This document shows, piece after piece, positions 1,151-34,003 of a stretch of DNA of 41,454 bases (position 1 is the stretch's first letter; the number at the start of each line of letters is the position of its first letter). Source of the DNA: Verrucomicrobiales bacterium (lineage in GTDB: Bacteria > Verrucomicrobiota > Verrucomicrobiia > Limisphaerales > CANJXF01); the NCBI GenBank assembly GCA_947478865.1, contig CANJXF010000041.1, positions 1 through 41,454 of the forward strand, read 5' to 3'. Made by a program: the position numbers and the translations under genes. The notes under the pieces are model-generated. The model ran no database searches. It was not told the DNA's origin and saw only the letters and a program-made list of their open reading frames with translations.

Positions 1151-1702
1151 ATGGCCAAAGCCGTTTTTTGTATCGCTACCAGTGAGTTTCAAGCGGAATC
1201 AATCGTCAACGAATTGAAGGTGGCAGGGTTTGCAGACAACGATATTTCCGTTTTATTCCCAGATAAAACCGGCACGAAAGATTTTGCCCATGAGCAGCAT
1301 ACCAAAGCACCCGAGGGGGCGGTGACCGGTGCCAGCACCGGCGGCGTGGTGGGTGGCGCGCTCGGTTGGCTGGCAGGGATTGGTGCGCTGGCTATTCCCG
1401 GAGTGGGTCCGTTCATCGCCGCCGGTCCGATCATGGCTGCTCTTGGCGGAGCCGCAGTAGGAGCCGCCGTGGGGGGCATCACCGGAGCCTTGGTCGGGAT
1501 GGGCATTCCCGAGTACGAAGCCAAACGGTATGAAGGAAAGATAAAGGCCGGAAACATATTAATCTCGGTCCACTCCGAGAACAATGACGAGACTAAACGG
1601 GCCAAAGAAATTTTTGAGCAAGCCGGCGCACAAGACATCTCCACAAGCGCAGAAGCAGGCGTAAAGGAAGAAAAAGTAAATCGTCGCGCCGCTCGCGGAT
1701 GA
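1151..1702 (+). CDS. YflT-like general stress protein with glycine-zipper core
   Basis: 183 residues. The N-terminal part (about 1-45, KAVFCIATSEFQAESIVNEL ... ISVLFPD) resembles the YflT/heat-induced stress domain found in general stress proteins. Residues 56-120 form a long Gly/Ala-rich hydrophobic stretch (GALGWLAGIGALAIPGVGPF, then GGAAVGAAVGGITGALVG) typical of glycine-zipper membrane segments. The C-terminal part is charged and contains ILISVHSE, a common second half of this family. A good ribosome site, AAGGAGAT, lies about 5 bases before the ATG. It leads a short cluster with two small membrane proteins, a context often linked to osmotic or envelope stress. The exact biochemical role of the family is unknown. 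Confidence 0.72.
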   Translation: MAKAVFCIATSEFQAESIVNELKVAGFADNDISVLFPDKTGTKDFAHEQHTKAPEGAVTGASTGGVVGGALGWLAGIGALAIPGVGPFIAAGPIMAALGGAAVGAAVGGITGALVGMGIPEYEAKRYEGKIKAGNILISVHSENNDETKRAKEIFEQAGAQDISTSAEAGVKEEKVNRRAARG

Positions 1703-31736: not shown

Positions 31737-33395
31737 TCACGCCAGTCGGTTCAACGCACTCAGCACCGCCTTCACCGAAGCCAGTTCGATGTTGGTATCC
31801 ACCCCTGCTCCCCAACGTGAACGTCCGTCGCAATGCTTGATTTGGATGTAGGCAATCGCAACCGCCTCTTCGCCGGAACTCAGCGCGTGTTCGCAATAGT
31901 TTGTAATCTCAAAACGCGGCACGTTCGCGCTGACCAATCCGTGAACCAGCGCCGCCAAGGGACCATTGCCTTCTCCGGAAAACTCTTTCGGCTTCCCATC
32001 GCAAATCATTTTCGCGCGGCAGCGAACGGCTCCGTCCTTGCTCTCGGTTTCAAAACTCTGCAACTGCCAGGGCGCCGTGCGATCGACATATTCGCGCCAG
32101 AACATTTGCTTCAGTTCCGCACCGGTCACTTCGCGACCAAGGCGATCTACCTCGTCGTTGGCAATTGGACCGAACTCACGCTGCATTTCCTTCGGCAAAT
32201 CGATGCCGAACTCGCTCTCCAACAAGTAAGCAACGCCACCTTTTCCCGATTGGCTGTTGACGCGAATGACCTCGCGATATTCGCGCCCGATGTCCGCCGG
32301 ATCAATGGTGAGATAGGGAACGTCCCAGTGGCTGCGTCCGCCCGCTTCCCATTCGGCGAGACCTTTCTTGATCGCGTCCTGATGCGAGCCGCTGAACGCG
32401 GTGAACACCAATTCACCGGCGTAAGACTGGCGCGGCGGCACGGTCATCCCGGTGCAGCGCTCGTAAACTTCGACGAGCGAATTGAGCTTCGAGAAATCTA
32501 ATTTCGGATCGATGCCGTGCTGGTAAAGATTCAGCGCGACGGTCACCACATCAAGATTGCCGGTGCGTTCGCCGTTGCCGAAAAGCGTTCCCTCCACGCG
32601 ATCGGCGCCCGCGAGCAAACCCAGTTCGGTCGCCGCAACACCGGTGCTGCGGTCGTTGTGCGTGTGCAAACTGATGATGAGCGATTCACGATTCTTGATG
32701 TTGCGGCAAATCCATTCGATCTGGTCCGCGTAAACATTCGGCATCGCGACCGCGACGGTGTCCGGCAAATTGAGAATCATTTTGCGCTGCGGCGTCGGTT
32801 GCCAGACATCCATGACCGCTTCGGAAATTTCCTTGGCAAACTCGACTTCCGTCGCGCTGAAACTCTCCGGCGAATATTGCAACATCACCTCGGTTCCTTT
32901 GAGGCGCGGCAAGCGTTCCTTGATCCATTTGGCGCCTTGCACGGCGATGGCTTTAATTTCGTCCTTCGATTTGCCGAACACGACGCGACGCTGCGCGGGC
33001 GAAGTGGAATTATAAAGGTGAATGATCGCCTTCTTCGCGCCAACAAGCGATTCAACGGTGCGCTCAATCAAATCCTCGCGCGCCTGCACGAGCACCTGCA
33101 ACCAGACATCGTCCGGCGCGCGGTTCTCTTCGATGAGGCGGCGATTGAAATTGAATTCCGTGTTCGACGCGGATGGAAAACCGACCTCGATTTCCTTGAA
33201 CCCGCATTTCACGAGCGCCTGAAAGAGTTCGAGCTTTTGCGACACATTCATCGGCACGGCGAGCGCCTGGTTGCCGTCGCGCAAATCGACGCTGCACCAG
33301 ATCGGCGCGTGAGAGAGGACGCGGTTGGGCCATTGCCGCTCAGGCAAATGAACCGGCGGAAACGCACGATATTTCTTTGACGGATCTTTCTGCAT
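31737..33395 (-). CDS. leuA: 2-isopropylmalate synthase
   Basis: 552 residues, the length of the LeuA type 2 group. It condenses acetyl-CoA with 2-ketoisovalerate, the first committed step of leucine synthesis. Motifs: WCSVDLRDGNQAL with Arg39-Asp40 (catalytic and metal), EIEVGFPSASNTEF, SLHTHNDRSTGVAA (metal-binding His pair) and LFGNGERTGNLD. The C-terminal 130 residues are the LeuA dimer domain that senses leucine (GNGPLAALVHGL). A leader with Leu codons and an attenuator lies directly upstream (33473-33601), so expression is probably set by leucyl-tRNA supply. ilvD, for the same pathway, is 5 kb away. Confidence 0.96.
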   Translation of the reverse strand: MQKDPSKKYRAFPPVHLPERQWPNRVLSHAPIWCSVDLRDGNQALAVPMNVSQKLELFQALVKCGFKEIEVGFPSASNTEFNFNRRLIEENRAPDDVWLQVLVQAREDLIERTVESLVGAKKAIIHLYNSTSPAQRRVVFGKSKDEIKAIAVQGAKWIKERLPRLKGTEVMLQYSPESFSATEVEFAKEISEAVMDVWQPTPQRKMILNLPDTVAVAMPNVYADQIEWICRNIKNRESLIISLHTHNDRSTGVAATELGLLAGADRVEGTLFGNGERTGNLDVVTVALNLYQHGIDPKLDFSKLNSLVEVYERCTGMTVPPRQSYAGELVFTAFSGSHQDAIKKGLAEWEAGGRSHWDVPYLTIDPADIGREYREVIRVNSQSGKGGVAYLLESEFGIDLPKEMQREFGPIANDEVDRLGREVTGAELKQMFWREYVDRTAPWQLQSFETESKDGAVRCRAKMICDGKPKEFSGEGNGPLAALVHGLVSANVPRFEITNYCEHALSSGEEAVAIAYIQIKHCDGRSRWGAGVDTNIELASVKAVLSALNRLA

Positions 33396-33472: not shown

Positions 33473-33511
33473 AAAAAACAAAAACCCCACCGCCTTTCAG
33501 CAGTGGGGTTT
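33473..33511 (-). terminator. Attenuator terminator hairpin before leuA
   Basis: On the minus strand AAACCCCACTGCT (33511-33499) pairs along all 13 positions, including two G-T pairs, with GGCGGTGGGGTTT (33494-33482) around a GAAA tetraloop. It is followed by T, then TGTTTTTT, to 33473. It lies between the short leader peptide and leuA on the leuA strand, so it should end transcription before leuA unless prevented. The upstream segment GGCAGTTGGGTTT (33548-33536) can pair with its left arm at 12 of 13 positions, which would prevent it. Confidence 0.88.
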
Positions 33512-33532
33512 GAAAATTATTCGTGAACGAAA

Positions 33533-33601
33533 TCAAAACCCAACTGCCACGCCGCAGAGCAGCGAGTTTAGTAACAGTCGAAGGTTCAAATTGCGATTCA
33601 C
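33533..33601 (-). CDS. leuL: Leucine-rich leader peptide of the leuA attenuator
   Basis: A 22-codon frame from GTG at 33601 to TGA at 33533, on the leuA strand. It reads MNRNLNLRLLLNSL, then LCGVAVGF: 7 Leu codons of 22, three in a row (CTG TTA CTA) and a later pair (CTG CTC). It is followed 21 bases later by the attenuator terminator. Position, size and Leu run are those of a leu-operon leader peptide: ribosome stalling when Leu-tRNA is scarce would free the antiterminator. No Shine-Dalgarno precedes the GTG. A TTGACC box at 33637-33632 lies about 30 bases upstream, so the message could be nearly leaderless. The symbol leuL is by analogy. Confidence 0.82.
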   Translation of the reverse strand: MNRNLNLRLLLNSLLCGVAVGF

Positions 33602-33676
33602 GGGATAACTACTAAATGCTTCGGCGTTTCCGGTCAACCGGTTATTTAGCGCACGCTGCCGGGGCGTTAATCCAAG

Positions 33677-34003
33677 TCAATAGCGCGGCAGCTCGGGATT
33701 CACTTCGGAAGTCCAACGGTCGATGCCGCCGGCGAGATTCTGCACCTTCGTAAAACCAAAATGTTTGAGCTGCGCAATTGCGTTCAGGCTGCGAATGCCA
33801 TGGTGGCAATACACGACGACTTCCTGGTCGCGCCATCCATCAATCTCGCCGACCCGCGATGCGAGTTCGCCGAGCGGAATCAAGGTTGAATTGGGGAGCG
33901 CAACGAACGCGTTTTCCTCGGTTTCCCGGACATCCAGCAAATGCGGCGGATTTTCTGAACCCAACTTTCCCGCGAGTTCGGCGGGAGCGATTTGGATATT
34001 CAT
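33677..34003 (-). CDS. Rhodanese-domain protein
   Basis: 108 residues, a single rhodanese domain. PPHLLDVRETEE at 19-30 is the conserved CH2A-type start and VVVYCHHGIRS holds the active-site Cys66 with the loop CHHGIR. The protein ends soon after LAGGIDRWTSEV, so no second domain. It probably carries persulfide sulfur in the cytoplasm. The ATG is 43 bp after trxB, so the two form a redox pair in one transcript. leuL starts 75 bp further down. Confidence 0.93.
   Translation of the reverse strand: MNIQIAPAELAGKLGSENPPHLLDVRETEENAFVALPNSTLIPLGELASRVGEIDGWRDQEVVVYCHHGIRSLNAIAQLKHFGFTKVQNLAGGIDRWTSEVNPELPRY

Follow-up and report, generated by a model that had tools for sequence, protein, structure and literature searches.

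A putative leaderless leucine attenuator upstream of leuA, conserved in the order Limisphaerales of the Verrucomicrobiota

Organization of the leuA upstream region

The window, a stretch of 41,454 nucleotides from a Verrucomicrobiales bacterium (contig CANJXF010000041.1, assembly GCA_947478865.1), carries on its minus strand a leuA gene for a 2-isopropylmalate synthase of 552 aa, which is of the leuA_yeast type (720.1 bits with NCBIfam TIGR00970, whose cut-off is 697.4). A rhodanese-like gene on the same strand ends upstream at 33677. Between the two genes lies a 22-codon leader ORF with the product VNRNLNLRLLLNSLLCGVAVGF, in which 7 codons are Leu, including a run of three and then a pair, and 21 bases past its TGA stands a hairpin of AAACCCCACTGCT and GGCGGTGGGGTTT around a GAAA loop, followed by the T-run TTGTTTTTT. 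The hairpin (33511-33482) consists of 13 pairs, two of them G-U. Leader and terminator had both been reported in an initial annotation made from the letters of the sequence, and their coordinates and dimensions were confirmed. RNAfold assigned -53.9 kcal/mol to the region 33473-33601 (z = -6.6). When the 300-nt region upstream of leuA was subjected to 1000 dinucleotide shuffles, a comparable Leu-rich ORF arose in 15, a comparable terminator in none and the combination of both likewise in 0/1000. The features of the region, together with two related elements discussed below, are listed in Table 1.

Table 1. Positions of the leuA attenuator features in the window and of two sister elements
Feature	Position	Strand	Basis or remark
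-35 box TTGACC, predicted promoter	33632..33637	-	box type across 66 loci
-10 box TAGTAG	33609..33614	-	ends 7 nt before leader start codon
Leader ORF GTG...TGA, VNRNLNLRLLLNSLLCGVAVGF	33533..33601	-	in-frame Leu enrichment; gap runs in multiples of 3
5' arm at start codon	33589..33601	-	RNAfold, swap test; pairs with post-stop arm, closes long 1:2 helix
Segment 1 (GAACC + CGACTGTTAC)	33571..33587	-	fold, swap test, 85% paired cells on alignment A1
Inner hairpin GCTGC-TCT-GCGGC in Leu codons	33551..33563	-	fold, column pairs; consensus CGCGC...GCGCG
Segment 2 (GTGGCAGTTGGGTTT; last codons of leader)	33536..33550	-	fold, swap test, two-sided changes; partner is segment 1 or 3
Post-stop arm, partner of start-codon region	33523..33534	-	fold, swap test
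Segment 3, left terminator arm AAACCCCACTGCT	33499..33511	-	antiterminator with segment 2; swap test, two-sided changes
Segment 4, right terminator arm GGCGGTGGGGTTT	33482..33494	-	paired cells, compensatory changes, shuffles
Terminator T-run TTGTTTTTT	33473..33481	-	sequence
leuA, putatively regulated gene	31737..33395	-	NCBIfam TIGR00970
ilvB attenuator, predicted leaderless, Val-rich leader	L148 234-363 (G000:C21:57533-57662)		30 loci
Phe-rich leader VNFCSFRFSAGRFGEYFFRHASLR and terminator, DAHP synthase gene	L227 1502-1670 (G000:C17)

Conservation of the leader, the promoter and the position before leuA

With LeuA as the query, about 100 further loci were collected, mostly from metagenome-assembled genomes, and the close ones belong to Verrucomicrobia subdivision 3 (Limisphaerales, Pedosphaera). 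The same layout, consisting of a leader of 20-26 codons, a stop codon, about 20-25 nt and a terminator, was found at 66 distinct leuA loci of the order, the window's own included. The leader consensus is roughly VNRNLNLLLxNALLLxGAAVGF and that of the terminator AACCCCACTGCC...GGCGGTGGGGTTTTTG; the conserved Leu codons that the initial annotation had called for in an alignment of relatives are present. Leu makes up 28.4% of the in-frame leader codons versus 5.8% and 6.2% in the other two frames, and each of the 166 gap runs within the aligned leaders has a length divisible by three, the gap runs behind the stop being of mixed lengths. Frame-specific Leu codons and indels in multiples of three form the pattern expected of a translated leader, so that translation of this putative peptide is supported.

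A sigma70-like promoter precedes the leader in 66/66 loci, with a TTGACC or similar box (TTGAC-/TTGC-type), a spacer of 16-18 bp, mostly 17, and a -10 box mostly of the form TAnnnT, which ends 6-10 nt, usually 6-8, before the leader start codon (GTG in 52 loci, ATG in 14). In the window, transcription is predicted to start at about 33602-33601, at or next to the GTG, and from this spacing the leader mRNA is predicted to be leaderless; a Shine-Dalgarno-like site precedes the leader in 2/66 loci. The conserved promoter geometry thus lends support to the earlier remark that the leader may be close to leaderless. Because the same promoter-to-start spacing occurs before several long ordinary ORFs of the genome, the leaderless arrangement looks native to the organism.

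A covariance model of the leuA element matched 211 of 245 genomes of the order, and so detects the element in most of them; among 388 genomes sampled from the phylum it matched 9, two of which belong to the same order. In this order (Verrucomicrobia subdivision 3, Limisphaerales/Pedosphaera), the predicted element is therefore present before leuA almost throughout. In 19 genomes, checked by coordinates, it stands before a different, non-orthologous isopropylmalate synthase, about 29% identical to that of the window and, in the one case typed, TIGR00973 leuA_bact. At least one genome has both leuA types, each with an element. The simplest reading would be that the cis-element persisted through replacement of the coding gene or was copied along with leuA.

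These comparisons bear on a plainer account, in which the hairpin would serve to end transcription of the rhodanese-like gene upstream or be an unregulated terminator, and the Leu-rich ORF would be a chance frame. The rhodanese-like gene does end upstream on the same strand, and ordinary genes of this genome can likewise finish in an intrinsic terminator of similar shape. However, the hairpin lies 166 nt past the rhodanese stop codon, behind a conserved promoter; the leader frame, its Leu codons and the antiterminator are kept in 66 loci, which contradicts a chance frame; and the element stays 14-237 nt upstream of leuA even where the gene is of the other type. On the strength of shuffles and conservation we reject a chance structure or an ordinary gene-end terminator, and the probability left to this account is negligible. 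Among the AACCC..GGGTTTTTT sites of the genome that were examined, only those at leuA and ilvB had an amino-acid-rich leader.

Mutually exclusive helices

Segment 2 had been proposed to pair with the left terminator arm (33511-33499), and this pairing was borne out: its core GCAGTTGGGTTT (33547-33536) pairs with the arm at 11 of 12 positions in the window. Across the aligned loci, 98.7% of the cells of the terminator (3:4) are paired, with compensatory changes at 5 of 11 pairs, a level reached by 0/500 shuffles, and the antiterminator (2:3) shows two-sided changes at 6 of 12 pairs. For the inner hairpin, each of the five column pairs is formed in 53-59 of 61 sequences. On fixed columns, covariation of the 1:2 helix was weaker than that of 2:3 and 3:4, so the compensatory changes sought in relatives were found for the latter two helices and only weakly for the first.

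Since segment 3 contains either three C's or four, with a shift of register, a swap test was added, which set the duplex energy between segments of one locus against that between segments exchanged among loci in 5000 permutations; as related sequences are not independent, the resulting counts are not probabilities. In the full set, exchanged segments did as well in 0/5000 permutations for each of 3:4, 2:3 and the start region with segment 2, and in 1/5000 for the start region with the post-stop arm. Among the control pairings, 1:4 and the start region with segment 3 were not significant and 1:3 was weak. In a divergent subset of 18 loci (mutual identity <75%), the counts were 0 for 3:4, 55 for 2:3, 0 for start:2 and 36 for start:post-stop, all below 1.2%, and the inner 1:2 pairing was not significant; as the control 1:3 was also low there (76/5000), the signals of 2:3 and start:post-stop are only modest in this subset. 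Taken as predicted helices, the terminator and the antiterminator covary.

Folds and swap tests together suggest that the ribosome-free helix holding segment 2 stretches from the start codon across GAACC and CGACTGTTAC (33601-33571). The 1:2 helix therefore extends to the start codon, and the small inner hairpin sits among the Leu codons. Segment 1 had originally been placed within those codons, at AAACTC and CTGC (33569-33559). That candidate was rejected, since most other loci carry GAACGCG at this place; the conserved partner is GAACC + CGACTGTTAC at 33587-33571.

The proposed switch

Nascent RNA ending with segment 3 was folded with a constrained partition function, assuming a 32-nt ribosome footprint at each codon. 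For the window, this folding model gave a probability of 0.92 for 1:2 and 0.01 for 2:3 without a ribosome, about 0.75-0.80 for 2:3 with the A site at codons 1-14, and at most 0.02 for 2:3 from codon 15 on. The same change in 2:3 was seen in the 66 loci about 7-9 codons before the stop, and the 66-locus average without a ribosome was less clear (1:2 0.42, 2:3 0.48). In thermodynamic folding of the full-length RNA of the window, the terminator won whatever the position of the ribosome. As equilibrium favours the terminator, the decision would have to be kinetic, with 2:3 established before 3:4, in the manner of known attenuators. According to the model, a stall at codons 9-11, the first Leu group, or at codon 14 would give antitermination, and a ribosome that has finished the leader would give termination.

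We propose that leuA is very probably controlled by a ribosome-mediated transcription attenuator sensing charged tRNA-Leu; this is the best explanation for the region, as the initial annotation had suggested, and the conserved Leu codons and compensatory changes support it. The analysis, which is computational throughout, supports the leader, its frame, the alternative helices with their covariation, the promoter geometry and the conservation, and from these we infer the start site, the translation, the termination and the response to leucine. Transcription would start on the GTG or no more than a few bases from it, and ribosomes would load on the leaderless RNA. When leucine is plentiful, the ribosome would get past the Leu codons, reach the stop codon and cover segment 2, so that the 3:4 terminator would form and leuA would not be transcribed. 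When charged tRNA-Leu is scarce, the ribosome would stall on Leu codons 5-14 and keep segment 1 from pairing; segment 2 would then be free to pair with the emerging segment 3, no terminator would form, and leuA would be transcribed. With no ribosome, segment 1 and the start-codon region would pair with segment 2 and the post-stop arm, in a helix that would favour termination and also hide the start codon. CTG, which is heavily used among the leader Leu codons, is probably a common codon in this organism, and its heavy use may limit the sensitivity of the switch.

The C-terminal AAVGF of the leader is strongly conserved, as would be expected if the peptide acted as a nascent chain, with AAVGF as an arrest sequence, or if the RNA or the peptide acted in trans, as has been reported for rnTrpL/peTrpL of S. 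meliloti; the predicted termination product would also be a small leaderless mRNA resembling rnTrpL (PMC7298713). However, the AAVGF codons are segment 2, whose pairing with segments 1 and 3 explains the conservation of the tail, and segments 2 and 3 co-vary across loci, which argues against an arrest. We therefore regard such a role in place of attenuation as very unlikely, while a role in trans may exist in addition to it.

Related attenuators at ilvB and the DAHP synthase gene

The second match of the model in the window's genome lies before ilvB (616 aa, TIGR00118), where the leader MILIALQVVVARVVVPVVGDAVGSCRA is followed by a terminator. Val-containing leaders, mostly with a run of Val, were present in 30/30 ilvB loci examined, this one counted, beginning 6-12 nt past a TTGAC..TAnnnT-like promoter, with the terminator about 21 nt after the stop codon. 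A scan of the genome for the same promoter geometry yielded a third case, in which a TIGR01361-type DAHP synthase gene is preceded by the leader VNFCSFRFSAGRFGEYFFRHASLR and a terminator; leaders rich in aromatic residues (Phe/Tyr/Trp) with the same spacing were found in 13 of 16 full-length DAHP synthase loci, and in 10 of these loci a terminator also passed strict recognition. That the codons switch with the pathway and the layout stays constant is the strongest argument for a ribosome reading the leader.

This argument also weighs on the idea of a structured RNA that senses leucine, a tRNA or a protein without translation of the leader, such as a riboswitch, a T-box or a protein-bound terminator. 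Strong alternative structures and a promoter directly before the element would suit such a sensor. However, Rfam gave no match at the gathering score in the whole window or in six related loci, the proteobacterial Leu_leader and the T-box models included for the window; the frame-preserving indels and the in-frame conservation of Leu point to translation; and the ilvB and DAHP synthase elements keep the logic with codons that become Val or Phe/Tyr/Trp. An untranslated sensor is thus extremely unlikely.

For ribosome-mediated attenuation, a wider claim can be made with some reserve, and we think it fairly probable: that Verrucomicrobiota of this order have a regulon of leaderless attenuators, keyed to Leu for leuA, to Val for ilvB and to Phe/Tyr/Trp for a DAHP synthase gene, that the helix hiding the leader start codon makes initiation on the leaderless mRNA part of the switch, and that the leuA element outlived the replacement of its enzyme by a non-orthologous isopropylmalate synthase. 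If true, this would extend the annotation of leuA, ilvB and a DAHP synthase gene as attenuated to a further lineage, and the loci would form a natural series in which one can study attenuation on leaderless mRNAs and the way a regulatory RNA survives when its target gene is replaced.

Two further elements were observed. A weak model match (27 bits) at G000:C23:7812-7977 (L149 2313-2478, minus strand) has a 36-codon leader-like frame, MQNTFTVKISLCAGCSVGVMPIWRSHQASGNVVRIF, with no clear amino-acid run, a strong terminator and then an ORF. In another class of the phylum (L164 and L166, about 1453-1640, minus strand), a frame containing Leu, Val and Ile that ends in LLVILRPAVGGG and a stop codon stands with a terminator before an acetolactate-synthase-like gene, which suggests attenuation beyond this order.

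Comparison with known leader-peptide systems

In the leu attenuator of Salmonella and E. coli (leuL), a leader with Leu codons, mutually exclusive 1:2, 2:3 and 3:4 helices and an intrinsic terminator precede leuA. The predicted element of the window resembles leuL in all of these traits; unlike leuL, it has no Rfam match and no Shine-Dalgarno sequence, is predicted to begin as a leaderless GTG, precedes a leuA of the TIGR00970 type and belongs to another phylum. For Salmonella leu, attenuation has been named as the major control (cited in PMC7298713).

Several systems share single traits with this element. In the ilvBNC attenuator of C. glutamicum, the leader codon lies one nucleotide from the transcription start and hairpin H1 shields the start codon (PMC11857589), so that a start-shielding helix, a near-start leader codon, codons for branched-chain amino acids and attenuation of transcription are held in common; compared by description rather than by sequence, that actinobacterial system differs in controlling ilvBNC and in its overlapping terminator and antiterminator hairpins. 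The attenuator RNA rnTrpL of S. meliloti trpL has its 5' end at the leader ATG (PMC7298713), and thus begins at the leader start codon as predicted here, but it has Trp codons, controls trpE(G) and belongs to the Alphaproteobacteria. The actinobacterial LEU element is a pseudoknot in which a base stem pairs Leu codons with the Shine-Dalgarno sequence of leuA (PMC1262725). It likewise has a Leu-rich ORF upstream of leuA and alternative structures, whereas the window has an intrinsic terminator, and leuA lacks a Shine-Dalgarno-like site of its own in 63/66 loci. At an actinobacterial leuA on a Streptomyces plasmid, a comparable leader was not found.

A 2010 screen named Proteobacteria and Actinobacteria as the only groups with demonstrated leader-peptide attenuation up to then, and itself added Firmicutes (PMC2965389). 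The initial annotation knew of no described case in this phylum, and our literature search likewise gave no leader-peptide attenuator of Verrucomicrobiota; an earlier mention in Weinberg 2017 or Lopatovskaya 2010 is possible. The mechanism is of the textbook kind and leaderless attenuators are already known; what appears to be new is the phylum.

Other leuA leaders

Different leaders were seen upstream of other leuA genes. In Verrucomicrobiaceae (L090-L110, last ~180 nt, alignment A3), the Leu leader MTTTATALLLLSLRLTQG, followed by a stop codon, is fused to a nearly invariant core of ~45 nt, CCCTGCGACTTACGC[A/T/G]AGGGTAGGCGGCCCGCGTTTCCTCGTCATG, with a covarying hairpin GCCGT..ACGGC and no T-run terminator. 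Rfam gave no match in the loci tested, and the element may act on translation or resemble the LEU element of Actinobacteria. A third type of leader, LLLTSRLTLLPG-like, occurs at L071, L082, L083, L085, L089, L093 and L098, which are partly labelled Chthoniobacter; these loci carry CGACTTACGCTGCTCCCCGG...CCGGGGAGC without a T-run, and in some of them a downstream GCGTAAATTCGGCTGG could pair with CCAGCCGACTTACGC. Leaders of leuA from different verrucomicrobial families, and from many loci of the order, share the motif C(T/G)(T/G)CGACTT (Leu-Arg-Leu), which is also present in Shinella/Ochrobactrum leuA leaders (alphaproteobacterial plasmid; L210 at about 588, and L212).
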